Assembly: GCA_948567375.1 (NCBI GenBank)
Contig: OX419762.1
Location: 39,661,034-39,725,033 of the forward strand
DNA: 64,000 nt
DNA from: Lunularia cruciata
Taxonomy: Eukaryota > Streptophyta > Marchantiopsida > Lunulariales > Lunulariaceae
Direction of reading: 5' to 3'
The notes beneath the pieces are model-generated. The model had not been told where the DNA came from. It worked only from the letters and a program-made list of their open reading frames with translations, and did no database searches. Shown piece by piece: positions 4,860 to 26,186 of the stretch. Positions within the stretch are counted from its first letter, which is position 1. Each line of letters begins with the position of its first letter. Made by a program: the position numbers and the translations under genes.

Positions 4860-7780
4860 TTGTTTGAATTGATGCAGATTCGGAAGTTGGGTAGATAGTG
4901 TGCAAAAATGCTCGCCAAAGTTTTTAGGATTCAACCAATTTGAGACAATGGATATTTGATTTGAGCCCTTGAAGGTGAAATCAAGGTTGATTTGGTACAA
5001 ATTGAGCCTAAATGCAAAATTGAAGATGGATCTGGGAACATATCTCCTCAATTTAGGGATTTGGAGATCCTCATTTTCTCAATTTGGCTTGAGTTGAGAG
5101 TTAGCCAAGATTTGATAGTCAGTCAATTATAACGAAGGTGCATTAGATTGGTAGAAGTTATCCAAATTTGGAGGTCAAGTTGGCGGAGATTGTTGTAGAG
5201 GATATTTGAGTTGGTGAAGTTGTGGATTAAAGAGGATAGGAAGGTCTAAATGGCCAATAAGCCAACCAAATTGTTGAGAATTGAATCAATTTGAGACAAT
5301 GGTATTCAATTTGAGTCCTTAGAGATGAAATCAAGGTTGATTAAGTACTAAGAGGTGAAATCAAGGTTGATTTGGTGCGAATTGGATCCAAAGTGCAAAA
5401 TTGGAGGTGGATTTTAGAACACATCTCTTCGAATTAAGCATTTATCAATTTGAGACAATGGGTATTCAATTTGAGACAATGGGTATTCAATTTGAGTCCT
5501 TAGAGATGAAATCAAGGTTGATTGAGTCTTAAGAGGTGAAATCAAGGTTGATTTGGTGCGAATTGGATCCAAAGTGCAAAATTGGAGGTGGATTTTCGAA
5601 CTTATCTCTTTGAATTAAGCATTTGGAGATTTATATTTTCTCAATTTGGCTCGAGTTGAGAGTTAGCAAAGGGTTTGCTGGTTAGCAAACTGTAGAGAAG
5701 GTGTATTAAATTGATAGAGGTTATCAAGATTCTAAGGTCAAGTTAGTGGAAGTTGTCCAAAGTTGGAGGTTGTCCTAGCTAATGCTTGAATTGGTGAAAC
5801 TGTGGGCTAGAGAGGCTACAAAGGCCTAAAAAGGCCATTAAGCTAGCAAATTTTTTTAGAATTGAATCGATTTGAGATAATGAGTATTCAATTTGAGCGG
5901 TAAGAGGTGAAATCAAAGTTTATTTGGTGCAAAGTGAGTACAAAATACAAAATTGGAGGTAGATTTTGAAACCCATATCCTCAAATTAACAATTTGGAGA
6001 TCCTCATCCTCTTAATTTTGATGGAGTTGAGAGTTAGTAGAAGATTTGGTAATCATCTAACTGTAGAGAAGGTGCTTTTAGATTTGCAAAGGTTATCTAG
6101 ATTTGGTGGTCAAGTTTGCATAGGTTGTCAAGAGTTGGAGGTTGCCCTAGCTAATGCTTAAGTTGGTGAAGCTATGGGCTAAAGAGGATACAAAGGCCTA
6201 GAATGGCTAGTAAGCCAACCAATTTTTTGAGAATTGAATCAATTTGAGATAATGGATATTCAATTTGAGCCATATGAATTGAAATCAAGGTTGATTTGAT
6301 GCAAATTGAGCCTAAAGTGAAAAGTTGGAGGTGGATTTGGGAACCTATCTTTTTGAATTCTAGATTAAGAGATTCTCATCTTATCAATTTGGCTTGAATT
6401 TAGAGTTAGCAAGGGATTTGGTAGTCGGCAAATGGTAGAAAAGGTGTATTAAATTGGCATTGGTTATCTAGATTTGGAGGTCAAGTTAGTGGAGGTTATC
6501 TAGAGTTGGAGGTTGTACTAACTAACGCTCGAGTTGGTGAAGTTTTGGGCTAGAGAGGCTACGACGGCCTAGAAAGGTCAATAAGCCAACCAAAGTTTTG
6601 ATAATTGAGTCAATTGAGATAATGGATATTTAGTTTGAGCACTAAGAGGTGAAATCAAGGTGGATTTGGGATCCCATTTCCTCAAATTAAATATATGGAA
6701 ATCCTTATCCTCTCAATTTGGCTTGAGTTGAGAATAAGCAAAAGATTTGCTGGTCATCTAACTGTAAAGAAGGTGCTTTCAAATTGGCAAAGATTATCTA
6801 AATTTGGAGGTCAAGTTAGCAAAGGTTATTTAGAGTTGGAGGTTTCTCTAGCTAATGCTCAAGTTGGTGAAGTTGTGGGCTAGACATGCTACAAAGGCCT
6901 AGAATGGCTAGTAAGTAAGCAAAATTTGTGAGAACTGAGTCGATTTGAGAGAATAAGTATTCAATTTGAGCCATAGGAGGTGAAATCTAAGTTGATTTTG
7001 TGCAATTTTAGCCCAAAGTGCAAAATTGGAGGTGGATTTGGGAACACATCTCTTCAAATTAGGGATTTGGAGATCTAATCTTCTCAATTGGCTCAAGTTG
7101 AGAGTTAGTGGAGGATTTGATGGTCTGCCAACTATAAAAAAAGGTGCATCATATTAGCAAAGGTTATCTAGATTCAAAAGTTAAGTTTGTGGAGGTTGTC
7201 CAAAGTTGGAAGTCGCTCTAGCTAATGCTTGAGTTGGTGAAGTTGTGGGCTAAAGAGGCTAGGAAGGGCCACTAAGCCAGCTTGGTGGCATAAGGCTAGC
7301 AAGTTTAGATTAATTTTTGGTGGTTTTTGGTAGAGGATTTGGTGGTAAGCCTACTCTAGAAAAGGTGCATTAGATTGGCAAAGGTTTTCTAAATTCAGAA
7401 GTCAAGTTGGCAGAAGTTGTCCAAAGTTGGAGGTTTCCCTAGCTAATGCTTGAGTTGGTTCAGATTGGCGAAGGTTGTCCAAAGTTGGAAGTTGCACTAA
7501 CTTATCCTTGAGTTGGTGAAGGTGTGGGTTAGAGAGGTTACAAAGGCCTAAAAGGGCAAACAAGCATGAGGCTAGCAAGTTTAGATTAATTTTTGGTAGT
7601 TTTTGGAGGAGGATTTGCTAGTCAACCAACTGTAGAGAAGGTGCATCAGATTGGCAAAGGTTGTCTATATTTGGAGGTCAAGATGACAAAGGTTGTCTAT
7701 AGTTGGAGGATGTCCTAGCTAATGCTCGAGTTGGTGTAAGGCTAGCAAGTTTAGATGAATTTTTGGTAGTTTTTAGTCAT
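4860..7780. repeat. Degenerate tandem array, ~350-390 bp unit
   Basis: At least seven diverged units. Anchor motif CAATTTGAGA(C/T)AATGG or a variant recurs near 4938, 5289, 5451, 5476, 5868, 6240, 6612 and 6950. In each unit it is followed by GAAATCAAGGTTGATTTGGT, CAAAATTGGAGGTGGATTT, GAGTTGAGAGTTAGC, AAGGTGCATTAGATTGG and GCTAATGCTTGAGTTGGTGAAG. One unit near 5289-5480 carries a partial internal duplication of ~160 bp. From 7300 to 7780 only the second half of the unit repeats. No unit encodes a recognisable protein. The position between LTR-A and the gag remnant of element D suggests an untranslated leader array, but independent satellite origin is possible. Confidence 0.8.
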
Positions 7781-7899: not shown

Positions 7900-8600
7900 T
7901 GGTTGACTAAAACTTGTACACATGTAACTTTGGTTAGGAGGCAATTTGATCCCATCCTTGATGATCTTGGTAGTTTAGGAGTAGGTAGATACACTCTTAT
8001 TATGTTAAATGCTAAATGGTGGTAGAGTTAGTCCAAATGGATTAATGAGATGGATTGTTTTGTTTAGACTTCTTGTGATTGGACCTCTATTCTCTACTCT
8101 ATTCTTTATTTTGTTTGTGCACCATGTTTATGTGAGGTGCCCTAACTTTAGAGCGTTGGTGCTCTAGTGTGCTCTTGATAGTGAGGTTGAAGTGATGACC
8201 AACATAATATCTATGTTTCTCTTTGGTGAGGTAGGAAGTGATGATTTGTAGACCATGAAAATGCATGTTGTGATGGTAGTTTATTAATTGCCCTTTCCCC
8301 TAGTGTAGATGTAGTAGTTAGAGCTACATTAGTAAGTGGTGTACAATTGGTGGTAGCACTTGGTAGTGATCCTTGGTGGAGTATTTGTGGTGATTATGGT
8401 TACGATTTAAGTTACATTGTCACGTTGGAGTTCTTTGGAGATTCCAAAGGAGATATTAATGCAATACATAGTGGGTTATACAAAGTGGCACTCAATATCA
8501 ACTTGTATCTAAGGTCCCAATGAGGGAGGAGATTGATTCTAATTTGGAGTTTGATATACGTGTTCAATTGATTCAATTGAGAGTGCACCTAGTGTGCCTG
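7900..8600 (+). other. Leader region of element D
   Basis: No coding signature. A stretch of ~70 bp around 8225-8290 (GGAAGTGATGATTTGTAGACC) is repeated at about 49150-49215, next to repeat E, hinting that both come from related element leaders. Confidence 0.35.
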
Positions 8601-10450
8601 TATCATTATTGTGGGACATGGACAAAATTTAATGGGCCAAAGACCCCAAGCACCACTATGGTATAGTGGGTACCATTGAGTTGGATGGCTTTATCTAAGA
8701 ATTTGATAATTGGTATGATCTACAACAAATGCAATACCCAAATTTGTTCACACCTTTCATGGCATAAAAAGGGTTGTTTCAACTCTTGGAGGGTCCACCA
8801 ATGGGTGACTATCATGAGTTTAAGGGAGCTTACTTGGAGGAGATTGAGCTATAGAGACACTATTGGTCTTTGAAGTACATCTCCATCACTTTAGACTCAA
8901 TTGCTAGGGGTAGATTAATAGTACCTACAAGTTCTAGCTCTAGTAGTGTTGGTCTATCTAGTGGAGATGAACTAGTTGGAGATGGTGCTACTACAAACAG
9001 GAGTAGTACTATAGGAGGTGGTGCAATACTAAGGTTTAACCTCTTGGTGGAGTTCTTCTAGTGCTTGAGGCAAAGCTACCCAAGAGTGCGGATTGACAAG
9101 TTGAGGAACGTAAGAGTTCCAATAGATGGCTAGAAAGAGCCTATGTGAGGCATACACTCGCATGAGATGGCTGCTCAATTTCACTTAGGAAGTTATTGAG
9201 GCCCAAGCAATCCAATTTTGGTATGGGATCCTAGACAAGGATTTGTGACATAGAGTATATGATGTTATGTTGTTACATGCTACCTCACCTACTTTGGCGG
9301 TGGTCTTTAGTTTCATTGGGCACATTGAGCTCAATATGGTGGAGTAGAGAGAAGTGACATCCAGATTTTGTAGGGAGACCTTATCCATAGTTTTTACTTT
9401 TTCTAAAACATAGTAGAGTGCACCACACCATGTTGGCATCCAAGGGCAAAGTGGATAGCCTTGATCTTATCAAGTGAATGGAGGATCTAGTGCAATTAGA
9501 CCACTACCTTCATGTTTAGGTCAATCTCAACAAGTGTGTGGTGGTGTTGCTTGTTGGACTTGTGTTGGACTTTACCAAAAGAGAGAGTGCACTTAGGGCA
9601 ATGGACATGATACCTCCAATGCATCACAGCCAACACAAAGATAGTGTGACCATTTCCATAGATTTGATCACACTAATGACCAATGCTTTGACCTTCACTC
9701 AGAGTTATGGAGTAGTAGGGATGCTACGACATGTGGTAGAAGAGCTCCAAATCATGGAGGATGAGGTGGTAGAGGACTCACACATCATAGGGTTGCAATA
9801 GCTACCCTTGCTTTTGATACAACCATGGCTACTAGAATTGAGCAGTTAGAGCAAAGATTAGCAAAGATTGGCTAGCATTGCCATAGCTCAAAGGGAATCA
9901 AATTCAAGTGTTGAGACTTCCACCTCTTATGTTAGTGATAGAGACATCTTGGACTTTATGTCCAGAGTAGCACAAGTATATGCATCTATTGCAATGACTA
10001 GGAGTGTAGTTTATGCTCCAAAGCCTAGAGGAGCATCAATGGAGTTGGACCCACAAAGAGGAGAGGTTGGTAGGTAGGTCAAACCTCCCTAGTCTTTCAC
10101 ACTCTCTAAGATACTACAGACTTCATCCATACCTCCTAAACATCCTAGTTCATGTGTGGTAGGTGGTGATGGAGTGCATGATGGACTAGATGTTAGTCAA
10201 CCACCTACTGCTACATAAATTAAGTCTAGCACAATGTTGGAGATGGCTCAATTGATTATGCGCTTCCATTTGTTCTCAACCATTGACATATTTACATTAG
10301 GAGTTGACCCAACTCCAATGTTATGGTTGGCTATCACACTTTGTGAGAGTAGGGATGATTTGGTTGTTGCTTCTAGAGCAAAGGTAGTTGATAGTGAGGC
10401 TAACTTGGTTGAGGAGCATGAGATCTATTCAACAACTAGTGGTTTATGGT
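8600..10450 (+). pseudogene. Element D gag-like region, decayed
   Basis: A series of short plus-strand open pieces in alternating frames. Around 9195-9370 the plus strand reads a gag-like helix-rich stretch (fragments IQFWYGILDKDL and VMLLHATSPTLAVV). The following open frame 9538-9801 ends in an acidic stretch, and 9868-10077 and 10234-10452 are Ser/Thr-rich linkers. The N-terminal part (8870-9061) is Ser/Gly-rich, as in disordered gag termini. No intact CCHC zinc knuckle is visible. The assignment rests mainly on position upstream of the protease. It cannot be functional: it has stops and frame changes every 60-90 codons. Confidence 0.45.
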
Positions 10451-10455
10451 AAGCA

Positions 10456-11660
10456 ATAGTAGTTGGGTTGGAGGAGTTACCAACTAGACTTGCCTTTGAG
10501 CAAGCACAATTCACACTTAGAGTTGTCCTATTGGATAAACAAAGGGGGATTTTATATTTAGTAGGACCTTTAGGGAAGGTTTATACATTATAGAGGGTCT
10601 TATTAGACTCTGGTGCGTAGCCTTGTATGTTGGAGAAGGCTATAAATGTTGGTCTTAAGCTACAAAAGATGTGAGCGTCACCTGGATTCTCTATGCTTGA
10701 GTGGGTGTGGCTTGACTGTAATCAATGCCCAATTGTTGGCAGTTTATAGAGTGACAGATCAAGTACTGATCTGAGTTGAGTTGAGTTGAGAGTGGTAAGC
10801 AATCTGATTATTGTGGCACTTTAGAGTCTATGTATGACTTATGTGTGAGTTGTGCTTCTATAGTGTATGTTGTTGACAGCGATGTATGTTGTGTAGCGAT
10901 GTATATATGCACGACACACTATACAACCAACTCAAACATAGGTTTTTAGATGGTAAAATTGATTAGATCACAAGATGGGAGTGAGTGGCTATAAGCACAA
11001 TAGCAAATATAGACAAATAAACTAGGGATATTCACAACATAACCATAATGTCCATGATCACAATGTTACCACAAAACTTTCCCATGTTCCTATAACATTC
11101 TCCAAGTGAAAAGTAATATAATGTAAGTAAGTATCTAGTACTTACTTATCATACCAAAATCTTCCTTAGATATTTCTGACCTCAAATTGGAGGAAAGTCC
11201 AGCAAGAGTCGAGTAAGATTAATCCAAAGGAGGTATTCAATCAAGTTGACCCTAGTTCTACATAGTTTATCACATGTGGAGAGCTCATTGTCAAGATTCA
11301 ACCTAGTCAACCAACTAATAGCTCTATGGTGAAAGCATAAGCCATTGCGATAGTAGTAGAGTCATATGATGTGCTAGTTGGTGGAGTAGTGTTATACTCC
11401 TTGGGTTTCAATTTTGACTATTGGGAAGAGATATCTTCCAATAGACTAGGTTGGCCATCAAGTGATGGATGTATATGTCACCTTCTAGTATAGCAATCTT
11501 GGCTCATTACAATCAGAGACCCTGGCATCAATTTTAAATTTTAGTGGTTTTGTTACCTGGCCTGGTGACTTATTAAAGAGGAATCCCCATGCAGTGGATA
11601 CTCCAATACCAAAAGAGATCACTCAGATTTGGAGTATGATTGAGATCATTGTATCAATCT
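10456..11660 (+). pseudogene. Element D aspartic protease and linker, interrupted
   Basis: The retroviral-type catalytic motif D-S-G-A (LLDSGA) is read at 10600-10617 and followed at once by a stop. Upstream is a KQRGILYLVGPLGKVY-like strand. The frame is lost at 10670, where a truncated LTR-A plus ~250 bp of unrelated DNA intervenes, and protease-like sequence resumes near 11190. Further on a clear block SYDVLVGGVVLYSLGFNF (about 11358-11411) matches the conserved C-terminal half of gypsy proteases (flap and hydrophobic ILG-type segment) and leads into a linker toward the methyltransferase. The enzyme would have cleaved the Gag-Pol polyprotein. It is inactive here. Confidence 0.65.
10671..10916 (-). 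repeat. Truncated LTR-A inside the element D protease
   Basis: Begins abruptly at GAGCGTCACCTGGATTCT and runs to the intact LTR terminus TATATATGCACGACA at 10916, so ~300 bp of the other end are missing. It is very close to the reverse complement of the 55168 copy over this span. DNA from 10917 to ~11190 is not protease-like and includes a small inverted repeat (AAGTAAGTA...TACTTACTT near 11123-11145). It may belong to the same insertion. Confidence 0.8.
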
Positions 11661-11840
11661 TAGATGTTCTTGTGGAGTTTTGAGGAGGCAATATAATAGC
11701 ATGCGGATTAGTTCGTGCAATAGGCTTAAAGTAGAGTCTTTGTACCACTAGAAGACCAATGTGAAGTTGAGCCCTTGGAGCCTATTACCTAGTCATCTTT
11801 GGATACCACACTCATTGCTTGGTAGTAACCAATAGAGGAA

Positions 11841-12660
11841 GTATGTTTATTAGAGTTTTTAGTAAGATTAGCACTAGACTAGCTATGATACTATAGGTAG
11901 GTATACGAGTACAAAGTACTTGTATGTGGAGAGAGATGAGATTGTTAGGCAAGTCTCTCTACATCATGTGGCACACTTGGCCTATTGATATCCAAAGTTA
12001 TTACCAATGTCAATAGTTAGGGGTTACTAAAAGATTCTACTAGCATACATTTCCTTGTTAGTGACCTAGAATTTGGAGAGATATGGTCCCATTCATTTGG
12101 TGATTTTTGGATGGCCATGTCATGGACATACCCATGTTGGCCAAGGTGAGGGTCTACATGATCTCCATTTTGGTGTGTTTTGGAAGATTTTACATAAACT
12201 ATGACATCTCCAAGTTCATCAATCCATTTTCTAGCCTACATTTTGGAGAATGTCCCTTTGATAAGTGATCCTTGTACACGGGTGGTGGTAAGTACACATC
12301 AAGTCCATTCCTAGATTGGACCTGTCAAGTTGTTGGAAGCTAGAGTGGGATCACAAGCTCATTATCTTCATCTTTGATGGAAAAACCTACTACCTAGAGA
12401 GGTTATACAACATGCTTATGATGGGATTCAATGACTAGACCACCTTATTGTTGATTGCATTTTGGATGTTAGGCACCAATCTCAAATTGTGGTAGTAGCT
12501 AATAGGTCATCTATGGCAATGGTGAACCTTTTTGGACAGCCCAAAGCCACTTTACACACACTTATGAGTTTCCTAAGCTCCTAGCTTTTTGAGAGGGAGG
12601 TCATGGACATGGGACTCAAAATTACAATAGTTGGTGGCACCTAATGCTGATGAGAGTGAG
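11841..12660 (+). pseudogene. Cytosine-5 DNA methyltransferase domain captured by element D, decayed
   Basis: C5-methyltransferases move a methyl group from S-adenosylmethionine to cytosine. In one frame from 11917 to ~12175, with three stops, I read LYVERDE (11920-11940), the strand GPIHLVIFGWPCHGH and then VGQGEGLHDLHFGVFWKIL. GWPCHGH (12109-12129) is motif IV, where the catalytic Cys of PCQ is kept but Gln is His. After a frameshift, YILENVPLISDP (from ~12237) carries motif VI (ENV, 12246-12254), and GSQAHYLHL (from 12347) fits motif VIII. A degenerate motif I-like LLEFLVRLALD precedes at 11847. The domain continues into NRSSMAMVNLFGQP and breaks at 12660, where a solo LTR entered; QAMGF resumes the frame at 18848. 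Length and motif order fit a complete catalytic domain. Stops show it is inactive. Confidence 0.8.
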
Positions 12661-13070
12661 TGTAATACCATTAGTTAGACACATTATCTAAAGGTGAACA
12701 TTGGTTTAGTAACATCTAGAAGGATGTTATAAGGATGCTATATATGATAGACTAAGTAGATTAGATAGAGGTGTCACCAAAAGAGTACTTCTACTAAGAG
12801 GGTAAGAGCCAAAAATAGCTTGAAAACTTTAGAGCCAATTTTGAAGGCCTAAACAAATGAATTAGGTCTCAAAAAGGATTCCTTGATATCATGAGAGGGG
12901 AATGGCTAGCCTTTCCTCCCCCTTGTTTGTCTCATCAAGAGCTTTCTGACAGTACCTCAACCATGCTATTTTGAGATTCCTATAGAAAGATTCCCTAAAG
13001 ATTCCCTTTAGTCAAAATTGGTTGACTAACCAAATAGGACAAGAATTGACATGTCACCCATGCAAGCAAC

Positions 13071-13075
13071 TAATC
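13071..13075. repeat. Copia target-site duplication TAATC (left)
   Basis: TAATC directly before the left LTR; the matching copy is at 18646-18650. The sequences outside the two copies join to the same LTR-B sequence that is uninterrupted near 30215-30220. Confidence 0.9.
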
Positions 13076-13540
13076 TGATGACAACCTTTCTTCCTAGTCT
13101 TTGAAGTAGATGGTCTATCCTCAATCATTTTGACTTCTTATGTATCAAACATCCTAGCACTCAGCTTTCCCAATCTCACCTGAGTAGACACTCTTGATTG
13201 CACTCAACAATACTCAACTCACTCTCTCTCAGAGCCTTCAAAGATAGTACACAGCAACACTCATGCAACATGAAAGGTACCCCAATGGTAAGCAGCATAG
13301 AACACACCTAAAACAAGGTACAAGGTGTTGGGAATAACCCTTGTATGAGAACTTGACAAAACAAGAGCAGAAACCATTGTTAAATACACATAAGCAAACC
13401 CTAGAGGGTTGCTTTGCATGACCTTAATTAGGGCTACACCCTCTCTTTACCCTAAGTATATTTAGTAGAGTTTCTAGAGGAATGTAACAAAGCCCTCAAA
13501 GTAGAGAAGTCACTAAACTAGAGATTAACTAAATCTAACA
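13076..13540 (-). repeat. Copia 3' LTR
   Basis: On the minus strand it runs TGTTAGATTTAG...GGTTGTCATCA, 465 bp. It aligns with 18164-18645; the other copy has a duplicated AATTAGGGTTTGC stretch of ~20 bp. Confidence 0.92.
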
Positions 13541-13549
13541 CTCCCACTT
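13541..13549 (-). promoter_or_regulatory. Copia polypurine tract
   Basis: Minus strand AAGTGGGAG directly abuts the 3' LTR start TGTTAGATT, the usual plus-strand primer site for reverse transcription. Confidence 0.85.
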
Positions 13550-13640
13550 AATGAGAGTTTAGGACAATTCCTATTTCTACTCCACATTTTATGTGTTTAT
13601 CTTTAGGTAGTGCCTTTGTAAACACATATGTTGTCATCTC

Positions 13641-14270
13641 CTATGTAGGACAATAAACTAACTTCACAACATTCTCCTTTTCTTTCTCCTTTACAAATCT
13701 TCTTTTAATCTCAATGTGCTTAGTCCTTGGGTGATGTACAAGATTTTTGCTGAGTGTTATACTTCTTGTATTGTCACAGTACAATATAGTAGGACTTTCT
13801 TGCTCAAAACCCAGCTCCTTAAGAAGTCTCCTACTGCAGATGACTTCTTGAGTAGCATTTGAGGCAGCCATAAATTCTGCCTCAATAGTAGACAGTGCAA
13901 CAGATGTTTGTTGTTTACTATGCCAACTGATTGCTCCACCACTAAGCATGATTACATTTCCACTAGTTGATCTGCTATTATCTATGTCATCTCCGCAACT
14001 AGCATTTGTATATGCTTCAAGTTTAGAAGCAAGTATGTTCCCTTGCTTTTTGTACTCCAAGAATGCATCTTGAGTACCCTTTAAGTACATGAATACTCTC
14101 TTTATACCTTTCTAATGTACTTGTGTAGGGTTGCTAGTATATCTAGCTAGTGCTCCCATTGCATAGCATATATTTGGTCTTGTACAGACCATGATAAACA
14201 TTAGAGAACCAAGAGCACTCTGATACAACACTTTGTCACAGAGATTCACCTCCCCATCTATGATTCTATT
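13641..14270 (-). pseudogene. Copia RNase H domain
   Basis: The 149-codon open part (13641-14090) reads RSTSGNVIMLSGGAISW, VALSTIEAEFMAAS, YCDNTRSITLSKN and HHPRTKHIEIKRRF. This gives the copia RNase H block with the acidic E of EAEF, D of YCDN and the H of the TKHIEI segment. The first catalytic Asp is altered (YTNASCGDD in place of a D-x-D start). Upstream, 14100-14270 continues with LGSLMFIMVCTRPN and CYAMGALARYTSNP, the conserved connection region, with one stop. This enzyme degrades the RNA of the RNA-DNA hybrid during reverse transcription. Confidence 0.9.
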
Positions 14271-14284
14271 GTGCTTTCACGAGG

Positions 14285-14675
14285 TCCTTTTCATGAACTT
14301 TGACTTTCCAATATTGTCTTCTCCCATGGGCTTCCAATATTATGAGATTTCAATCTCTCAGTCCTCCCAATTGATCCCTTTATGACAACTCTATACTCAT
14401 AGTTTTAATCTGTGCGCGACTGAATTCTACAAATGTTCCGCAACTCCACTCTATTTCAAGTATCACCACCCAATCTTACATTCTAATTGAAAATCTTTAG
14501 CACAACTGAGACCAAATCAATCCTCTAATCCAATTCAATGCCCCGCACTTGCAATGTTGAGGCGTCAAAGACAAGCTTCACCTTACAAAGCAAACCCGAA
14601 GTGAAATTCTTGAAAACGACCAAATCCGATGGATCTGTTGAGATGCTCAACTGATACGTGCAGCCAAAATTGAAC
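14285..14675 (-). other. Foreign insert in the copia pol gene
   Basis: Copia sequence stops after NPISTPLD near 14690 and resumes at the connection region near 14270. The ~390 bp between are slightly more GC-rich and give no copia similarity. On the minus strand 14530-14675 is open for 48 codons (begins NFGCTYQLSISTDPSDLVVF) with sensible amino-acid composition, then stops accumulate. I do not recognise it. It could be a captured host exon or a piece of another repeat. Confidence 0.5.
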
Positions 14676-14689
14676 ATACCATGCAAGAT

Positions 14690-15480
14690 CAAGAGGTGTA
14701 GAGATAGGATTTGCCTCTATCATCTAATACTTAGCTAGTATGGATCTCACATATTGTGGTTGACTGATCCTGATCTAGATCCATCTTGCTTCTCTGTCTT
14801 TGCTCACTTTGATTCCCAAAATGAGTTTTATAGGACCAAGGACAGTCATCTCAAAACCAAAGCACAAGAAATCTATCACTCCTTTGATAGATTCACTGTT
14901 CTCCAACAGTAATAGATCATCTACATATGCAGCTATGTATACATCATCTCTAGTATACACACTCATGTTAGAATCTGCTTGTTTGAAATCGTGCTCTCTC
15001 AAGTATGAATCTAGTTTCTCATACTAGGCTCTAGGAGCTTGCTTAATACCATATAAAGCCTTCTTAAGCAAGCATAATTTTCCTTTGCCTTCAATATATC
15101 CATCTAGAACATCCATGTAGATAGTCTCTTCAAATCTCCATTTAGAAAGGTTGTTTTCACATCTAACTGCTTGCTTCCGAATCTCTCTCTTTGCTGCAAG
15201 AGCTAGAAGCATGTGAATAGATCCATACTTGGCAATTGGTGCAAAAATTTTGGAATAATCTATTGATGCTTTCTGATTGAAGCCCTTTGCAACAAGTCTT
15301 GCCTTGTACTTCATTCTTAGCTCCATGTTTGACCCTAAAAACCCATTTACAGCCAATTGCTTTCCTACTTGGTGGTAAGTCATCTAGTACCCATGTACCA
15401 TTAGTCTGAAGAGACTTCTTCTCTTCTGCTATAGCCAACTCCCACTGACTCAAATCTGGTCTGAGCATAGCTTCTTGTAG
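14690..15480 (-). pseudogene. Copia reverse transcriptase
   Basis: Minus-strand pieces in three frames. First WELAIAEEKKSLQTNGTWVL and IGCKWVFRVKHG (15468 downward), then after a frameshift YKARLVAKGFNQ, IDYSKIFAPIAKY and LKKALYGIKQAPRA, then VYIAAYVDDLLLL with the catalytic YVDD at 14916-14927, and GPIKLILGIKV. This is the full conserved copia RT block. The active-site YVDD is intact, but the frameshift near 15300 and the stop after KQAPRA prevent translation. Confidence 0.95.
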
Positions 15481-15879
15481 AGTTTTGGGATCACAATCTT
15501 CATGATAGATGTAAGTTCATCTAACATCTCTTATGATAAAAAGCCAAGTCTATCAATAGGTTTTCTATCTCTCTGTGATCTTCTTGGCTTTGTGCCCAAA
15601 ACTTTCATGTCATCTCTTGACATCTCTCGAATCTCACTCATAGATTCTTCATTTGCAGTCTATTTCTGGGAGTCATCTTCTATAGTATCAGGATCAAAAA
15701 CTATAGTTTTTATATGCCTTCTTTGGTACACCTTCAGACTCTCCTTTGGTGAACCATCAAATTCAGGTAGAGATTTCTCTTCTGATAATTGATCTGGAAA
15801 ACTGACTTTGCGGCTTGGGAAGATAGGTTGATCAGGCTGATCAAACTGATCAGCTTGCTTTTGCAACTCATCATTGTTC

Positions 15880-17203
15880 TCAGTCTAAGTCCTCAATTCA
15901 TCAAAGAGTACATCTCTACTTTTGATGATCTGTCCAGACTTAGGATTGTACAAAATATATCCTTTCAGTCCCTCTTCATATTCTACAAAGAGCATTCTCC
16001 TCAGCCATCTTTGTGAACTTCTTCCTTTTCTCCTTGGGAATATGAACATAGGCAGGACATCCAAAAACTTTCAAAGCTAAAAGATTAGGTTTCTTACCAC
16101 TCCAACATTATTCAAGGAGTTCTTCCTTGTGATGTGGTACCATTGATATTTCTAAGGTAATTTGTAGTGCTAATTGCAGCACCCCAAAACTTTCTCTCCA
16201 ACTTGGCATGTTGAAGCATGGCCAATGCTTTGTCCAGCAATGTCCTATTCAACCTTTCTACAACTCCATTTTGTGCAGGATTGTCTTTGGCAGAACAGTC
16301 AAGGAGAATTCATTTCTCTGATAGAAAAGAGAGGAATTCCTCATTCTTGTACTCTTTGCCTCCATTTGTTCTCAATTGCTTGACTTTCCTCTCCCTCTGC
16401 AACTCAGCCATGGCTACAAACTTCTGGAATCTTTGCAGCACTTCATCCTTGCTTTTCATGAGATAGATAAAGCTCTTTCTACTATAATCATCCACAAAGG
16501 AAATATAGTAGGATGCTCCACTCAATGACTTCTCAGTCATGTATCCCCATACATCAGAATGTACAACATCTATAAGACCAGAAGCTCTAGATGAAGATTT
16601 CTTGGGGATAGGAGCCTTGTGTGCCTTACCTTCTACACATCCAATGCAGAACTTGAGTTTTCCTTTGGGATCCAATTTCAACCCATCTACTACCTTCTCT
16701 AAAGCATATAGGTTTTGCACTAACAAGTGCCCTAACCTCAAATGCCACAAATGGATATCATTTCTATTTTCAGCTACCAATGCAGAATCAGAACAATCAA
16801 CTTCCACCAACTTGAACAGCTTCCCTTTGGCAGTGCCATATCCAAGGACCAGCTCTCCTTTCTTCAAATTGCATTGATTTCTGTTTCTCTCAAACAGAAT
16901 ATCCACATCATGCTCCATGAGGCAATGTACTAATATCAAGTCCTTGGTGTAATCTAGAACATAGAGCACATCTTCCAAATAGCTCTTACAAGAACTTGTG
17001 TTAGATCTTCCCATGAAGGCAATAGGAACTTTACCAGGTCCTAATACTGGATTCAAAATCCCAAATCCACAACCAACACTCTTGGGAATCTTCGTAGGTT
17101 GAAGAGTTGAGAATAGCTCCTTTTGGTAACAAATATGAGAGGTGGCTCCAAAATCCAAGAACCATCCAAAATTGTTTGTGGACAATTGCAATTCTGCCAA
17201 CAT
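15880..17203 (-). pseudogene. Copia protease and integrase
   Basis: The open frame 16310-17203 (297 codons) begins in the protease: LDFGATSH at about 17160-17135, where the usual LDSGATSH has Ser changed to Phe next to the catalytic Asp. It continues with the GAG-pre-integrase zinc finger (H154, H159, C186, C189: HLRLGH ... CIGC) and the integrase core (HSDVWG with D217; FVDDYSRKSFIYL). The second catalytic region reads RTNGGKEYKN, lacking the Asp of the usual DNGGE. The frame breaks at 16310; NRTLLDKALAML and KFWGAAIS continue it to ~16150, then ALKVFGCPAYVH near 16050. Frameshifts and the lost Asp make it inactive. Confidence 0.93.
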
Positions 17204-17338
17204 TCCATAGTCTAGGTCTTCTACTGAGTACCCTTCCTTATTGCTTTCTATCTCATTGCACTCCTCTGTGTTGTAAGTTGAACTTGCAGATTTTTGACCT
17301 TTTACTGGTTGAGGTTCCTTGCCTACCTTCTTCAGCTC

Positions 17339-18130
17339 TCATTCTCTCCTTTCTCCTCTCTTGAGACATATAGGTGCAACATGACCTTTCTCATGACAGA
17401 AATAACAAATCATGTTATCAACACTACTAACTCCTTTACCAAATTTACTCACTCTGGATTGCTTTGGTTTTCTCACTCTTCTATTTAGCACTCTCCTTGA
17501 CCAAGAAGAAGCACTAAACAGAGCAGAATCTCCCAAATCATTAAACTTCATCTTTAGGTCCTCTTTATCTCTGCTAAACACCAGCAATCTGTTTATCACA
17601 TAATCCCATGTGACAACTTCAACTGGTAGAAATTTTAGTGCTACTTTGATAGGCTAGTAGCTTGGAGTGAGAGTCTTCAAGAGATAGTTGATCTCATATT
17701 TCTCTACAAGGGGACACCCATCTTCCTTGACACTCTTGAAGACCTTTTGTAACTTTGACAAGTGCAAAGTAAAGTCTTCACCATCTTCTAGTTTAGTGTT
17801 CCATATCCCATCCCATATCCTACTAGAACTTTCCAGCCTCTCAACAAAGTAAAATTTCTTGAGTTTGTGCCACATCTCCCAACTCCAAGCATAAGTGTCT
17901 ACTAGGTCTGTGACTGGCTCTTTCATAGCCCTTAGTTTAAACCTCCTAGTAGTAGAGTGCTTGATTCTCTACTCCTTGTTGGACTCAAGCTCATCTATAT
18001 CATGAGCTTCTAATGGCAAGTCTAAACAATCATAGGATGATAAACCCTAGTTGTCTAGGATACACTTCACATTCAAAGCACCGGCTTTGTAATTAGTGTT
18101 TCCCAATTTCTCTAGCTCTTTGAGTTCTCC
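17339..18130 (-). pseudogene. Copia gag with CCHC zinc knuckle
   Basis: Minus-strand pieces: a start-proximal segment (SPLGLIGELKELEKLGNTNY, near 18140), a helical capsid-like part (17654-17926; WHKLKKFYFVERL, LKTLTPSY) and the nucleocapsid part (17339-17599) with CYFCHEKGHVAPIC at 17366-17407. The last is a complete C-x2-C-x4-H-x4-C knuckle. Stops separate the pieces. Confidence 0.85.
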
Positions 18131-18163
18131 TATCAATCCCAATGGTGATTCTGGGTCATAACC

Positions 18164-18645
18164 TAATAAGAACCTTTCTTCCTAGTCTTTGAAGTAGATG
18201 ATCTATCCTCAATCATTCTGACTTCTTATGAATTAGACATTCTAGTACTCAGCTTTCTCAGTCTCACCAGAGTAGACACTCCTGATTACACTCAGCAAAA
18301 AATATTCAACTCACTCTCTCTTAGAGCCTTCAAAGATAGTACAAAACAACACTCATGTAGCATGAAAGGTACCCCAATGGTACGCAACATAGAATACACC
18401 TAAAACAAGGTACAAAACATGACCATTGTATGAGAACTTGACAAAACAAGAGCAGAAATTACTCTTAAATACACATAAGCAAACCCTAGAGGGTTGCTTT
18501 GCAATTAGGGTTTGCAATTACTAGAGACCCTAATTAGGGTTGCGCCCCCTCTTTACCCTAAGTGTATTTAGCAGAGTTTCTAGAGGAATGTAACAAAGCC
18601 CTTAAAGCAGAGAAGTCACTAACTAGAGATTAACTAAATCTAACA
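18164..18645 (-). repeat. Copia 5' LTR
   Basis: 482 bp, minus-strand start TGTTAGATTTAG at 18645. Its inner end reads GGTTCTTATTA rather than the GGTTGTCATCA of the other LTR, so it has decayed. A convincing tRNA primer site could not be read next to it. Confidence 0.9.
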
Positions 18646-18650
18646 TAATC
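18646..18650. repeat. Copia target-site duplication TAATC (right)
   Basis: Exact match to 13071-13075. Confidence 0.9.
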
Positions 18651-18842
18651 TAAGGATGGAGCTTGCTCATAGATCACCAATCCATGTAGGTGATCCAAAG
18701 ATGGAGCTTCTTTTGAAGAAATCTTCTTTGTTATATAATAAAGACAAGATGCTCCTTTGGGACATCAGAGTACTAAGTGTGATGCTTCATGTTTCTTCTC
18801 TTGTGTTTCTCTTAGAAGTTCTCCTATCCTTGGAACATTACA

Positions 18843-18890
18843 AGGAGCAGGCAATGGGTTTTTTTATTGATATTATTGCTATTATAGTGA
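18843..18890 (+). pseudogene. Methyltransferase domain, continuation of element D
   Basis: Directly after LTR-B the plus strand reads QAMGFFIDIIAIIVRSEGF, in frame with the ...DESE end of the piece left of 12660 once one target duplicate is removed. Homology gives way to repeat E within ~50 bp. Confidence 0.6.
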
Positions 18891-20205
18891 GGTCAGAGGG
18901 CTTTCAAGGAATGAAGACTATGGTTGGAAAGAAAGCTAACATGCTACAATTTGGTGATAGAAAATAGATGATTTGAGTAGATTCTTTTTGGGGGGGAAGA
19001 ATATGATCGATTAAATTAAGGGAGATAGAATTCATACCCATGAGCACAAAATTGCAATTTGGAGAACTTCATGAAATATTTTCATGATTTGTCATGGGGT
19101 TGGAAAGAAGACAAATTGTTTGTAGTGTTGATTACAAATGTTTTTTAGTTTTGGATCAACTTCAAATCAGATCTAGTTGATTGAAGTTGGTGCTTTTGGG
19201 ATGTAAGGTGTTGGAGAAGAGCTGATGATTAGGTTTGGAGTTTTGGTCATTCCCCAAGTTGTGGTTTGAGTCACCTTATGAAAATTTCTAGTGTTGTTGG
19301 TGGTTAGGTTTTGCACCTCTATGTGAAGGTTTCATGCAAATTCCTGGAAAGGAGAATTCAAGGTCTTGGATCAAGAATACTTGGGCCTATAGAGCTTACA
19401 AGTTAGCCCAACTCAAGAATTAATCCATATCTAGGGATTGGGGTTGGATTAGGCCATCAAACTCTGCAGAGGATTAGATAAAGGCACAACTAGCTACTTT
19501 AGAAAATTTTCTTGGCTCTAGGTCCATGGAGAGCGAGAGTTGATGCAACAAGTTCTATTGAAAATACTATCATAAGCTCAATAGAGCAATTCTATCTTCA
19601 ATCATGATAGAATGGCAATTCTCCTATTTTTGTGACTGTGATTGAGGATTTTAGATTGGTGGAATGTTTATGAGGATCAATTTTATCTCTAATTCAGAAA
19701 TCTGGAGAAAAGTTGCCAAGAACCAGGAGCAAACACTAAATTAGGGTGAAAATTACAAGAAACTAGCCAAGCTTGAGAGCTTGTCAAGGGAGCTATAGTG
19801 ATCAGATTGTAGCTTATGTCATATCATTGGAAGGCTTTTCTCACAGGCTTTCCATTGACTCCTAAAACCCTTGAATCAAGTTCACAAAAAAAGTTATATT
19901 TATATGAGTTGCATAGAGTTTTCCCCATAAAAAATATATAGAAGTTCTCCACTTGGATTAGAAGTGGGTTGAAATCTGAAGAACAGATTGGAAGAGGCTT
20001 GGATTACATGTTGAAATTAGCTTGATGATAGAGCAAGAAGGTTCTAAAGCTTTTTTTTTACAAGAGCATAAAGTGTTTTTTTTCAATTCTTGTGGTCTAT
20101 GCTTGTATGCTTGTTTGTACGCCCAGTTTGCTTGGACTATGCACAACCTCTAATCCATAAGCTCTATAGCTAGGCACTCTGTGTGTTCCCAAAGAGAGAA
20201 AGGAC
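18885..20205 (+). repeat. Dispersed repeat E, copy 1
   Basis: About 1.3 kb aligned with 47800-49380. Shared landmarks: GATTTGAGTAG, GAATTCATACCCA, GATCAATTGAAG-like, TTTAGAGTTTTGGTTGC-like, TCAAGAATTGATCCATATCTAG, CTTGTCAAGGGAGCT, ATCCATAAGCT and CCAAAGAGAGAAAGG. No protein family is encoded. It replaces the N-terminal part of the element D reverse transcriptase, so it probably inserted with a deletion. Its ends lack clear TG...CA termini, so its class is unknown. Confidence 0.7.
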
Positions 20206-20214
20206 AATTACAAT

Positions 20215-20740
20215 AATGGTAAAGATGTATTATATTAGTGGAGGTTCTTACCATTTGGGTTAAAGAATGTTCTTGCCAAGTTCTAGAGTGTCATGAACAA
20301 GATCTTGGTAAGATCAGATTTTGCTCAATGTCATATTGATAAAAAATTTGTTTATAGCATTATTGTGGAGGAGCATGAAAGACACTTGTTGGAGGTGCTT
20401 GAGAGGTTGATATATCATGGACTCAAACTACATCATGAGAATTGTAGATTCTTCCATGAGTAGGTTGAGTATTTGAGTCACACTATCTATCATTGAAGAC
20501 TTGGTGTTTAGTAGACCAAGGTGGATGTTATTGCACATATTCCTTGGTGTATAGATGTGAGCAAAGTATGAGCATTCCTTGGGTTGGAAAAATTTTATCT
20601 TCAAAATGTAAGAGGATATAATGCCATTTCCAAGGCTTTGACAAAGTTGACCAAGCTTACACATGAGTGATGTTGGGGAGATGAGCAAGAGAGAGCTTTT
20701 ATAGAGCTCAAGGAGACATTTGTCATTTGCTCAAGCTTGA
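20215..20740 (+). pseudogene. Element D reverse transcriptase (C-terminal half)
   Basis: Plus strand reads LPFGLKNVLAKF (near 20250), then IDKKFVYSIIVEEHERHLL, LERLIYHGLKLHHENCRFFH and VEYLSHTIYH, then FLGLEKFYLQNV. This is the palm/thumb region of a gypsy reverse transcriptase. The catalytic Y-x-D-D site reads HIDKK, so one essential Asp is lost. The fingers part before LPFG is missing, replaced by repeat E. Confidence 0.85.
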
Positions 20741-21172
20741 CATTTTCTCACTATTCTTAGGAGACCAATTAGAGGTTGACCATTCCAGGTTCATATTGAT
20801 TGGAGTATGTTGGAGCTTGGAGCAATGCTCACCAAGTAGGATGATTAGAAGAAGGAGTTTGTGGTGGCCTATGCTAATCACTCCAAAAATTCAGCAGAAG
20901 TGAAGTATAGTTCATTTGAGGGAAAGTGCTTGGCAATAGTATGTGGAATAGCACATTTTTTATGTTACCTATTACCACTTCATTCTCATCACTGATCATC
21001 AACCATTGAAGGAGTTTGACGAGCTTTCAAGGAAGTTTGCATGATGGGCTTTGATACAAGAGTATGATTTTATAATTATTCATAGACCTAGAGTGGTGAA
21101 TTGTGATGCAAATGGGTTGAGTAGAAACCCATGTCCCATATAGCAAGATCAAACTGGAGCATGTTGGCATGG
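20740..21172 (+). pseudogene. Element D RNase H
   Basis: Pieces HIDWSMLELGAML (near 20800), KEFVVAYANHSKNSAEVKYS, FEGKCLAIVCGIAHF, TDHQPLKEF in a shifted frame (about 20994), then IQEYDFIIIHRP and VNCDANGLSRNP just before 21130. The order and motifs are those of gypsy RNase H. It is cut at 21172 by insertion of chromovirus B. Confidence 0.85.
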
Positions 21173-21740
21173 TGTAATATTCCAAGGATAGGAGAACCCT
21201 CAAGAGAAACACAAGGTTTCATCTCTCAATACTCCAATGCTCCAAAGGAGCACATTGTCTTAATTATATAACAAAGAAGATCCATTCAAAGGGAGTTCCA
21301 CCTTTGGATCAAATACATGGATTGGTGACATCTCAGCAAGCTCTACCCTTAGATTAGTTGCATGTATTGGTGACATATTAATCCTTGTCCAATCTGGTTG
21401 GTCAAACACGTTTGATCGGAGAGAATCTTTGGAAACTCTTCTTATAAGAAGTTTAAAATAGCATGGATGAGGTACCATTGGAAAGCTCTCATGATACAAA
21501 CAAGGGAGGAGAAGGAAATGCTATTTCTCCCTAAGAGAAGAATTTTTCACTTTTCAAGGCTTAATTCATCTATTTATGTCTCCAAAATTGGCTCTAAAGT
21601 TTTCAAGGTGTCTTTGACCTCTATCTTATTATGAAAGTACTCTTTTGGTGACACCTCCAACTGATCTACTTAGACCATCATATTTAACATCCCTCTAGAT
21701 ATTACTAAGCCAATTTTCACCTCCAGATAATATGTCTAGC
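21173..21740 (-). repeat. Chromovirus B outer (third) LTR
   Basis: 568 bp, same orientation as the adjacent LTR. The junction reads AACATTATAGCTAGACATATT on the minus strand, so the last bases of one LTR and the first ~11 of the next have been lost. It contains a TATATAATAAAG TATA-like block as in the other copies. Confidence 0.88.
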
Positions 21741-22319
21741 TATAATGTTCTGAGGACAAGAGAACCCCCAAGAGAAAACCCAAAAGAAGAAACACAAAGC
21801 TTCACACTCAAAACTCCAAAAGAGCACCTTGTCTTTATTATATAGCAAAGAGAATTCCCTCAATGGAAACTCCACTCTTGGATCAGATACATGGATTGGT
21901 GATATGTCATTGAGATCTACCCTTAGATTAGTTGCATGCATGGGTGACATGTTGATTTTGATCCTATCTGGTTGGTTAAACAAACTTTGACCAGAGGAAG
22001 TTTTCCTATAGGAATCTCAAAATCACATGGGTGAGGTATCATTGGAAAGCTCTTGCCGAGAAAAAAAGAAGGGAGGGGAGGCAAGCTTCTTCTTTTTCTA
22101 CAAGTATGTACTGACATTTTTTAGGTCTACTTCATCCGTTTAGGCCTCCAAAATTAGCTCTGAAGTTTTTAGACTATTTTTTACTCTACCTTATTAGTAG
22201 AAGTACTTTTCTGGTGATATCTTTATCAGATGTACTTAGTCCATCATATATAATATCCTTCTAGATGTTACCAAGCCAATTTTCACCTCTAGATAATATG
22301 TCTAGCTATTGGTATTACA
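21741..22319 (-). repeat. Chromovirus B 3' LTR
   Basis: 579 bp, minus-strand start TGTAATACCAATAGC at 22319, directly after the polypurine tract. Confidence 0.92.
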
Positions 22320-22336
22320 AATCTCCCCCCTTTTAA
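22320..22336 (-). promoter_or_regulatory. Chromovirus B polypurine tract
   Basis: Minus strand AAAAGGGGGGAGATT abuts the LTR start. Confidence 0.88.
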
Positions 22337-22397
22337 GATGCAATATCCTTGTTGCAAATTTGTTAATCAAAAGATTTCACTTACACTAGTGCATAGG

Positions 22398-22640
22398 TCA
22401 AGTTGGTTGTTGGCTCCCATGTTGTCTCATATATTGGGTACACTTTCCACTACACAAGATATTTTGCACATGGATGGTGAGTACCACGGATGCATTTTTG
22501 GAGAATGCATTTGACTTCATATTCCTCCGTGCCATCAATGAGTGTTGGACAAGGTCAAATGTCTTGTATGGAAGGAAAATGAGGTAGTTGGAGGGCATAA
22601 TTTTTATAGTAAGGAAACATGGAATGTCGGATGGATCTTC
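22398..22640 (-). pseudogene. Chromovirus B chromodomain
   Basis: At the C-terminus of integrase the minus strand reads EEYEVKCILQKCI (near 22530), then KYLVxWKVYPIYETTWEP with W-K and TTWEP. These are the hallmark strands and the aromatic W-K-x-Y / W-E-P blocks of the integrase-linked chromodomain, which targets insertion to chromatin. One stop interrupts it. Confidence 0.8.
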
Positions 22641-23822
22641 ATATATGGCAGTAGCTCAAGGTGAAAAGCAACTATGCAGATTTTATGAAGAATCAAAATA
22701 GGCCCAATAAAATGACACTTGAGCTTACAAGGGCCAAATAACATGAGGTTGGTTGTTAATAGCTAGACTTGATCCTCAACATTGAACTCCATGTGTTGAT
22801 GGTGTGCATTTGCATATTATTTCTATCAATTTTGGGCAATTTGCATCGTGTGCTTGTAGTTTTCCACACCTTGTTGGATTCTAGAAACAAAAATGTTGAT
22901 AGCATCAACCTTGGTAGCCATTGGATGGATCTTCATCAAGCTCAAATTTGTGAAAGGATGCTCTTTATACATGAGGAAGAATAGTGTGACTTATGTGGAT
23001 GCATTCACTGAATTGTTGTAAGCAAATTCCACCGGTGGAAGTAAGGTGTCCCACCTCTCTTGCTCATCTAAGGTGAAGCCTCGGAGCATATTTTCAATAG
23101 TGCAATTAGCTTGCTTTGTTTGTCCATCAGTTCATGGATAGTAAGCTGAGGACATGGCCACTTTGGTTTTGAGGAAACCAATGAGTGTTCTCTAAAACAA
23201 ATTAGTGAATTGAGTGCATTAGTGATGAGTACTCAAGACAAGCCATGGTGAGAAAAAAGACTACATCTAAGTACAATTGAGCTAGTTGTGGAGCAATCAT
23301 GTCCTTGGTGGTAGGACACACATGAATCATTTTGCTAATTTGATCAACAAAGACTATTATGGAGTCAAATCCTAAGGTGGTCTTGGGCAATTCACAAACC
23401 AGATCCATGTTTACAAGTTCCCAATGTTGTGTAGGAATGGAGAGGGGTTGAAAGAGTCCTATGGGAGCTTGGTTAGAAGCTTTATTTTTTTGATAGAGTA
23501 GGTAGCTCCAAATATATTTCATCACATTGTTGCTCATCTTGGGTGAATAATAATGGCATTTGACTACATCCAAGGTCTTGTCCACTCCAACATGACCTAC
23601 AATAGCGGAATCATGACATTTTGCTGAGATGGTGGTTCTTATGTCCATTGCATCCAGAATCCACAACATGCCATGATGAAAGGTGAGTCTTTGAGTGTTG
23701 GTGATGTCTTTGGATGATTGATCTCCTACAAATTGTGGATCATTTTTTGTAGCAACAAGCATCCATGGCCAAAATTTAGGGTTTATCTTGACCTTTACCA
23801 CTAGATTGTTTACCATCGGCAT
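22640..23822 (-). pseudogene. Chromovirus B integrase
   Basis: The open piece 23202-23822 holds the zinc finger start HDSAIVGHVGVDKT, but the two Cys positions read SYLLYQ, so zinc binding is lost. The core follows (ELVNMDLVCELPKT with the first Asp; FDSIIVFVDQISKM). After a frameshift the second Asp region is changed to Asn-like, then TDGQTKQANCTIENMLRGF is clear near 23115-23060. The C-terminal GPY-type region (KIHPTFHVSLL) precedes the chromodomain. Confidence 0.9.
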
Positions 23823-24007
23823 TCATGCAATGTACCTACAAGTTGCTTCTTGCCTTCCTCGTATGTGATTGTCATGTTGAAACATTATCTCTACTTTGCA
23901 CACCAAATTTTTTGATGAGATAGATCTTTCTTTGTCTTGAGGTAGACTAGAGGTTTGTGGTCTATCTCCACTACAAATACCTTCTCACCAAGATAGTGCT
24001 TCCAATA

Positions 24008-24482
24008 TATAATAATATGGAGTTTAGCAATAAAGTTAATCAAGGCTAATAAAGTAGCAAATGTGCTAAATTAGTCTAGAATATTCTAGAAGTATCTAGG
24101 AAGCTACTTGTTATCCTCCTAAGTATTAGGTAACATGCATCCCAAGTGGCAACTTCTAGGCAGAAATTTCTTGGGAAGCTTCACGACTAGCTTAGCTTGC
24201 ACCCCAAGTAGGTAGCTTCTAGAAGCTTCTAACTAGCTTTGCTTGCACGCCAAGTAGGTGGTCTCTAGAAGCAAGCTTCTTTAGAAGCTTCCAAATTAAC
24301 TTGGCTTGCACTCCAAGAAAGAGGCTCAAGGAAGCTTCTTGAAAAGCTTCTCAAGAGTCTTGTATGCTCCTTATAAATACCAAAGCCGAGGCTCATGCTA
24401 GGCATTTGGATTTTCCCACACTCAAGTGTCCCAATGTGATCTTCTATTCTATTATTTTCCTCCTCGGTCTTGGTCTTTTACA
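24008..24482 (+). repeat. Solo LTR-F in the RNase H of chromovirus B
   Basis: 475 bp, starting TATAATAATATGG (first G of TG mutated) and ending GGTCTTTTACA. Target duplication CAATA/CAATG on the two sides. It aligns with LTR copies at 43466, 50485 (reverse), 53549 and 58348. TATAAATA at 24372-24379 with several GAAGCTTC palindromes upstream. Confidence 0.9.
24079..24091 (+). promoter_or_regulatory. Heat-shock element in LTR-F
   Basis: GAATATTCTAGAA is a perfect three-unit GAAnnTTCnnGAA site. A second perfect site TTCTAGAAGCTTC lies at 24217-24229. Both are upstream of the TATA box. Confidence 0.6.
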
Positions 24483-25990: not shown

Positions 25991-26186
25991 TGTTTGCCAA
26001 TTAGGTAGCTCTAATTTTTCATTCTCATCCTTTTATAGATCCATCTTCAAACCTCTTGCAATAGAGTGTCTAGCAATGCTTTGACATGATTGCCTTCTAG
26101 GACTCCATTAATGACAATCAATATTGAGTTTGTCTTCCTTGATCTTTGTGCACTTGTCCTTTTTCTCTCCTTGCTTTTTTTCTTCT

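Follow-up and report, generated by a model that had tools for sequence, protein, structure and literature searches.

A decayed Ty3/gypsy retrotransposon with a DNMT3-type cytosine methyltransferase in a 64-kb window of plant DNA

Background

In plants, cytosine methylation is aimed chiefly at retrotransposons; why would such a parasite itself write the mark that silences it? The question is raised by a stretch of 64,000 nucleotides from the Lunularia cruciata assembly GCA_948567375.1 (contig OX419762.1, positions 39,661,034 to 39,725,033; the whole stretch is called the window, and all coordinates refer to it). An initial annotation, made from the letters alone, had placed a decayed C5-cytosine methyltransferase (MTase) between the protease and the reverse transcriptase (RT) of a Ty3/gypsy element in this window, and a profile built only from relatives, together with collinear relatives, backs that placement. 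The region at 8594-30798 is, with near certainty, a dead and heavily interrupted Ty3/gypsy remnant from a lineage that carries an unpermuted DNMT3-type MTase and a PHD finger. For the fuller explanation, in which a DNMT3 and PHD gypsy lineage makes its MTase at the level of Gag and methylates its own cDNA or insertions, the probability is put at roughly 0.6.

Identification of the methyltransferase domain

By its sequence, the segment at 11834-12660 is a decayed DNMT3-type C5 MTase inside the Ty3/gypsy element, broken into four plus-strand reading-frame blocks with stops. The three motifs singled out by the initial annotation were all found on translation, in the order claimed and in two frames: GWPCHGH in frame 1, and YILENVP and GSQAHYLHL in frame 3. 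They are the counterparts of GWPCQGH, YILENVP and GSRAHRPRL in the family, which we take to be motifs IV, VI and VIII. The domain is longer than the start at 11840 given earlier implied, with a ruined motif I in frame 2 (11834-11911), where ELFGG of the family has become RVFSK (alignment A2; tblastn with P0016 at 11831-11914 and P0017 at 11828-11914, 38-39% identity). The next block (11911-12225, frame 1) extends from a motif II-like part to motif IV and keeps the catalytic Cys in GWPCHGH; it matches DNMT3B in the PDB and is 50% identical to a Marchantia polymorpha protein (P0001). Motif VI with its retained ENV, a decayed motif VIII and the target-recognition region lie in frame 3 (12231-12593), followed by a short frame-1 piece ahead of motif IX/X (12595-12660, PNADESE), for which tblastn gives 41-71% in the relatives covering it. 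Both the Gly-Gly of motif I and the arginines of motif VIII are gone.

The domain had also been thought to continue in frame across a nested long terminal repeat (LTR). This holds for a short stretch only (18842-18898); in tblastn with relatives, motif X was not found in the window after the nested insertions. The continuation (EQAMGF..., 18843-18898, plus strand) is weak, with 42% identity over 19 residues (tblastn E-value 0.083 in a 1.5 kb search), and the junction reads PNADESE / EQAMGF versus PNADERERAMGF in the family.

The domain was recognised with profile A1, made from relatives only with the window left out, which scores 96.6 bits at 11911-12225 and 104.7 bits at 12222-12593; the best of 100 order-1 Markov windows reached 10.9 bits, and 99 of them gave no match at all. 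A 56-residue frame-1 piece (12070-12237) had DNMT3B as all 12 of its best PDB matches (E-values 0.0018 to 0.018), aligned around the catalytic Cys, while the frame-3 piece matched a single protein among 120 candidates, M. polymorpha MARPO_0091s0058 (P0001; 54% identity, E = 5.5e-29). DNMT3A/B ranked first each time the PDB was searched with the frame-1 piece, the P0001 domain or the A1 profile, the last giving 1.3e-20 for DNMT3A/B and 3.7e-6 and weaker for tRNA-type C5 enzymes. The domain of a Calypogeia relative has a predicted fold like DNMT3A/B, with DNMT3 first in the fold searches. The MTase type, unpermuted DNMT3, is assigned from these PDB sequence and fold searches.

The motifs follow each other in the window as I (ruined), IV, VI and VIII (ruined), and full-length relatives show I, IV, VI, VIII and X in order. 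Membership in the domains rearranged methyltransferases (DRM) was rejected, as this order is canonical and not permuted; with DRM2 chains, only positions 2-127 of the A1 profile align, to the C-terminal part of the chain.

The host element

Remnants of Gag, protease, MTase, RT, RNase H, integrase and a PHD finger, all on the plus strand and in that order, align with relatives in tblastn. The decayed gag occupies several frames at 8594-9863 (37-50%, mostly 41-45%, with Marchantia P0002, P0003, P0018 and P0027 over 8594/8636-9863). It is followed by the gag-protease linker and the first part of the aspartic protease, with LLDSGA at about 10600-10617 (9862-10683; 31-35% with P0003, P0005 and P0001), and, beyond a later insertion, by the rest of the protease and the linker to the MTase (11266-11855; 38-44% with P0001 and P0002 at 11266-11490, 11495-11668 and 11670-11855); the protease itself aligns at 10219-10683 and 11266-11490. 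Downstream of the MTase, the RT lacks its first part (20212-20724; RVT_1 2e-8 over profile positions 107-205 only; P0014 53%) and is followed by RNase H (20753-21170; RT_RNaseH_2 7.1e-13; P0001 54-64%). The pol linker and integrase (H2C2 and core, 28625-29650) align with P0001 at 28625-28790 and with the second open reading frame (ORF2) of L001, a complete relative described below (54% over 28863-29390, 46% over 29408-29650). The C-terminal part of the integrase lies beyond a nested LTR (30399-30610; L001 ORF2 57-60%), and a remnant of the C-terminal PHD finger closes the element (30622-30798; 51% with L001 ORF2 residues 961-1018). The RVT_1 and RNase H matches are above the Pfam cut-off and the integrase matches below it (Integrase_H2C2 E = 3.9e-4, rve E = 0.0074); no Pfam PHD match was obtained in the window itself.

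The earlier proposal that the MTase was built into the gypsy element before the nested insertions is borne out by the relatives, which carry the same domain in the same place; P0001, for instance, has PF00145, RVT_1 and RNase H in one chain.

Distribution and phylogeny of the relatives

Relatives were scored among the roughly 8000 candidates sharing most words with each query (7988 for P0001, 7998 for A2). The P0001 query yielded 27 proteins and the A2 query 173, of which 120 were listed. Named sources among the matches listed are the liverworts and mosses M. polymorpha, M. paleacea, Calypogeia fissa, Riccia sorocarpa, Sphagnum fallax, S. troendelagicum and S. tenellum, as well as the charophyte Closterium and one bin labelled Obscuribacterales; the named matches are for the most part retrotransposon-type proteins from Marchantia, Calypogeia and Sphagnum. 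Neither vascular plants nor Klebsormidium nitens occur among the named matches listed for the two queries (27 for P0001, the best 120 of 173 for A2). A scan of IMG/VR gave 81 pattern matches and no relatives, and one of GTDB, in which records from the window's own genome may be missing, 54 pattern matches and a single relative, L001.

The MTase tree started from 148 profile-matching proteins, 82 of which were dropped (fewer than 235 profile positions covered, or scattered), leaving 66 domains and the window. The latter falls within a 28-row clade with Calypogeia, Marchantia and Sphagnum (support 100/99), its exact place inside the clade being unsure because of a long branch (0.73). P0025 and P0026 were flagged as possibly false neighbours. 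A protein labelled Obscuribacterales (P0049) sits in the same clade. In a 9-row RT tree, the MTase-bearing elements are split from the two other gypsy elements of the window at 99/98.

The catalytic Cys is present in 61 of the 66 domains, the Glu and Asn of ENV in 64 and 65, and the three motif VIII arginines in 44, 58 and 61. Identity between L001 and Marchantia amounts to 42-49% in the MTase, 24-32% in gag-protease and 58-67% in the RT. An MTase better conserved than gag-protease and less so than the RT would fit purifying selection, as judged from percent identity.

A complete relative and the position of the methyltransferase

L001 is a contig of 9285 bases from a metagenome bin labelled Synechococcales (cyanobacterial), with identical ends of 127 bases, as if assembled as a circle. 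Since it encodes an entire gypsy element, its bacterial label is almost surely a case of mis-binning; both L001 and P0049 are probably eukaryotic contigs mis-binned into bacterial genomes. The first open reading frame (ORF1, 1162 residues) encodes gag with two CCHC boxes (identified by eye) and the protease (Asp_protease_2 below the cut-off), with the MTase close to its C-terminus. It is followed in frame by TAG CAA TCA, a UAG stop in what we take to be the leaky-stop context of tobamoviruses, beyond which ORF2 encodes RT, RNase H, integrase and, at residues 990-1034 (E = 4.3e-10), a PHD finger.

Thirteen annotated homologs were inspected for the same division. Seven (P0003, P0009, P0010, P0011, P0012, P0019 and P0020) end 77-162 residues beyond motif X and are without RT; one (P0006) stops sooner after the MTase, and two (P0002 and P0004) lack the search string. 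We consider it probable that the MTase is made together with Gag in ORF1.

Decay and CpG depletion

The copy in the window is inactive, a pseudogene, with its frameshifts, stops, nested insertions and lost motifs I and VIII. The initial annotation had envisaged an element writing methylation on its own or host DNA; by the state of its sequence, this copy can no longer do so, and for the family we infer such activity from the relatives. In 197 columns at least 80% of 29 relatives agree, and the window keeps the family residue in 120 of these. The losses fall heavily on arginine, kept in 3 of 20 such columns, as compared with 117 of 177 for the remaining residues; His, Gln, Cys or a stop has replaced it in 12 of the 17 changed columns, as expected from the way in which methylated CG codons decay.

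The ratio of observed to expected CpG (o/e) amounts to 0.098 for the element (0.063 for its MTase part), 0.095 for a nested copia element, 0 for a solo LTR and 0.122 for another gypsy element. The element was likely heavily methylated, to judge from these values. The CpG loss is similar in neighbouring elements and therefore does not point to the element's own enzyme. The repeat landscape as a whole is deeply nested, old and AT-rich (GC content 0.374); together with the relatives' own hosts, this type of genome was read as that of a plant, perhaps one with a large genome, for instance a fern or gymnosperm.

Two stretches stand out from this background. About 7 kb at 34001-41000 have sharp edges, GC of 0.39-0.48 and CpG o/e of 0.89-1.02 per kb, the o/e of the flanking repeats lying mostly at 0-0.3. 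The part at 35001-39990 gave no Pfam domain, and the stretch may represent organelle DNA, a recent insertion or a locus free of methylation. A second CpG-rich stretch is found at 61001-64000 (o/e 0.71-0.89), its GC reaching 0.54 where the window ends, and 59101-64000 gave no Pfam match.

Nested insertions and neighbouring features

The gaps in the alignment of the MTase element correspond to later insertions, so it is older than the elements within it. The protease is split by an insertion at 10684-11265, a gap in the relatives' alignment, part of which (10673-10916) is 96% identical in self-blastn to 55167-55410 in inverted orientation. The LTR reported earlier within the MTase (12661/18842) is present; it is, more exactly, a solo LTR into which a copia element has inserted. 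Its two parts (12661-13075 and 18651-18842, together spanning 12661-18842; TGTAAT...ATTACA) have a weak target-site duplication (GTGAG / AGGAG) and match the LTRs at 21173-22317, 27904-28485 and 29644-30403 in self-blastn. The Ty1/copia element inside it lies on the minus strand (13076-18645), with LTRs at about 13076-13540 and 18159-18645 (Kimura two-parameter distance, K2P, 0.107) and a perfect 5-bp duplication, TAATC (13071-13075 and 18646-18650).

The expected place of the first part of the RT is occupied by a repeat (19162-20212) that is 69-77% identical to 48079-49096 and 49320-49385; self-blastn thus places two copies of about 1.0-1.3 kb in the window, at 19162-20212 and 48079-49385. 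Between RNase H and integrase, the nested stretch 21173-28485 comprises a solo LTR (21173-21743) and, on the minus strand, a gypsy element whose LTRs (21743-22317 and 27907-28481) have a K2P of 0.226. The integrase is interrupted by another nested LTR (29644-30403).

Just upstream of gag, a tandem-like array with a unit of about 370 bp (4910-7774) may belong to the 5' region of the element. A palindrome-like inverted repeat is located at 60578-60692 (79-92% in self-blastn). Rfam and tRNA searches of the window gave no match.

Proposed mechanism and alternative explanations

The arrangement in L001 suggests how an active member might use its enzyme. The MTase would form the C-terminal part of a Gag-protease-MTase polyprotein, to which RT, RNase H, integrase and PHD finger would be added through readthrough of a leaky UAG. 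Made alongside Gag and protease and in excess over RT, the MTase would be abundant in virus-like particles, where the protease might free it to methylate new cDNA, or later the fresh insertion, de novo. A new copy would then arrive already methylated and host-like, and hence be tolerated by the host, while the PHD finger on the integrase might read histone tails and steer insertion. A writer on the Gag side and a reader on the integrase suggest separate jobs within one element. The methylation step itself is put forward tentatively, at somewhat less than even odds, and the MTase would bring the element a benefit of this kind.

Several observations weigh against this explanation or parts of it. 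The window domain is recognised mainly through its relatives: Pfam PF00145, present in 11 of the 11 relatives of A1, was matched neither by the raw window frames nor by the separate pieces or their joined reading (0 families), and the frame-3 piece has no methyltransferase match in the PDB, only enolase-type chance matches (E = 0.07 and worse). The initial annotation had proposed PF00145 as its check, and this result alone would sink the claim; it stands because the more sensitive tests (A1 profile, PDB and relatives) support it. No direct repeat pair that could represent the element's own LTRs was seen to bracket 8594-30798 in self-blastn of the window. The readthrough context is known from one contig only (L001). 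Nor do all annotated proteins show the ORF split, because RT-like sequence follows in three of the 13 homologs (P0005, P0008 and P0021) and MTase and RT are fused in P0001 and P0014; a contig end or a gene model may have truncated some of the seven RT-less homologs. A second arrangement occurs in P0023 and P0024, whose MTase is placed after RNase H and before integrase and whose integrase is followed by a PHD finger. The partial P0025 (RT, RNase H, MTase) and P0026 (MTase, integrase, PHD) agree with this order, which could reflect either one lineage with a domain shift or two captures. The CpG o/e of the element (0.098 versus 0.095 in the nested copia) carries no signature of self-methylation. 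Finally, the gypsy DNMT3 of Klebsormidium did not methylate DNA in yeast, a result that its authors call inconclusive (PMC5890265).

The alternative that survives best, unlikely as it is, holds that the MTase acts as a restraint, methylating sibling or rival elements and lowering copy number so that the host is spared (self-limitation or exclusion). The catalytic residues conserved in relatives would serve this role as well, de Mendoza et al. suggest a slowed retrotransposition rate benefiting the host (PMC5890265), and the measured elements of the window are CpG-poor, as heavily methylated DNA would be. However, elements without an MTase are equally CpG-poor, and host enzymes account for this poverty. 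Less probable still is an RNA target, namely the element RNA or a tRNA primer. Placement of the MTase with an RNA-binding Gag (the two CCHC boxes of L001 ORF1) and the lack of methylation in the yeast DNA assay of the Klebsormidium enzyme (PMC5890265) speak for it, yet the profile is far nearer to DNMT3A/B (1.3e-20), the tRNA-type C5 enzymes giving 3.7e-6 and weaker. It is highly improbable that the domain persists only to bind nucleic acid, without catalysis: the Cys (replaced by Tyr in 2 of 66) or other residues are missing from a few relatives, which may be dead copies, but the Cys (61/66), ENV (64-65/66) and two of the motif VIII arginines (58 and 61 of 66) are retained almost throughout. 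Chance landing of a host DNMT3 fragment between the halves of an unrelated gypsy element, which could not have been dismissed from the window alone, given its decay into four frame blocks and the several insertions nested in it, is ruled out by collinear relatives, since the window order recurs within single proteins (gag, protease and MTase in P0002; protease, MTase, RT and RNase H in P0001 and P0014), L001 holds the whole element, and the window MTase falls inside the element family in the tree.

Comparison with known systems

Retrotransposon DNMTs are known from Symbiodinium and Klebsormidium (PMC5890265), and one review describes DNMT-bearing retrotransposons as not present in land plants such as tracheophytes (PMC6338049), a statement contradicted by the Marchantia, Calypogeia and Sphagnum proteins. 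The family seems hardly described in land plants: no report of a DNMT-bearing gypsy element there was met in the accessible portions of the openly licensed literature, including PMC9516144, PMC8566409, PMC8616336, PMC12344493, PMC9289625, PMC9033089 and PMC6453930. A land-plant family, an MTase at the end of the Gag-protease ORF and a PHD finger are apparently new. One might go further and suppose, at somewhat less than even odds, that a single ancient streptophyte gypsy lineage has kept its DNMT3 and PHD reader throughout the history of land plants, both in bryophytes and in a vascular plant with a large genome (as which this reading takes the window), the enzyme being made at Gag level via a leaky stop and each particle carrying its own de novo methylation machinery. 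If true, such a lineage, including a vascular plant, would overturn the published absence from land plants such as tracheophytes. The presence of the family in Marchantia, a laboratory plant, makes the question of a self-written mark open to genetics.

Capture of an epitranscriptomic-enzyme domain by Ty3/gypsy has a parallel in orchid elements with an AlkB N6-methyladenosine demethylase domain (PMC9289625), which differ in enzyme and host group; the word DNMT is absent from the accessible part of that article. SymbioDIRS-Dnmt3 and SymbioLINE-Dnmt are, like the window family, retrotransposon-encoded C5 DNMTs, but they belong to the DIRS and LINE classes of dinoflagellates, and their authors see independent captures (PMC5890265). 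The SymbioDIRS-Dnmt3 domains of Symbiodinium methylate CG in yeast, and the roles proposed in the same paper are self-recognition, protection from editing and a slowed retrotransposition rate. The nearest counterpart by description is KnitGypsy-Dnmt3 of the charophyte K. nitens (de Mendoza et al. 2018, PMC5890265): the DNMT3-type domain of this gypsy LTR element is unrearranged and, by Ka/Ks (the nonsynonymous to synonymous rate ratio), under purifying selection. Its DNMT is located inside the Pol ORF, whereas the MTase of L001 and several homologs stands at the end of the Gag-protease ORF, before RT; in the window copy this ORF boundary has been lost. The accessible text contains none of the words PHD, readthrough and moss. 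The host of KnitGypsy-Dnmt3 is an alga, and the present family, set apart by published description, is found in liverworts, mosses and the window copy.

Cellular plant DNMT3, exemplified by PpDNMT3b (Yaari et al. 2019, PMC6453930), belongs to the same enzyme family and has the same unpermuted order. Compared by description, the cellular enzyme has DUF3444, whereas the MTase of the element is joined to gag, pol and a PHD finger. The cellular enzyme is the likely ultimate source of the element MTase. It persists in gymnosperms and is undetected in angiosperms (PMC6453930), and a source enzyme therefore existed outside flowering plants.
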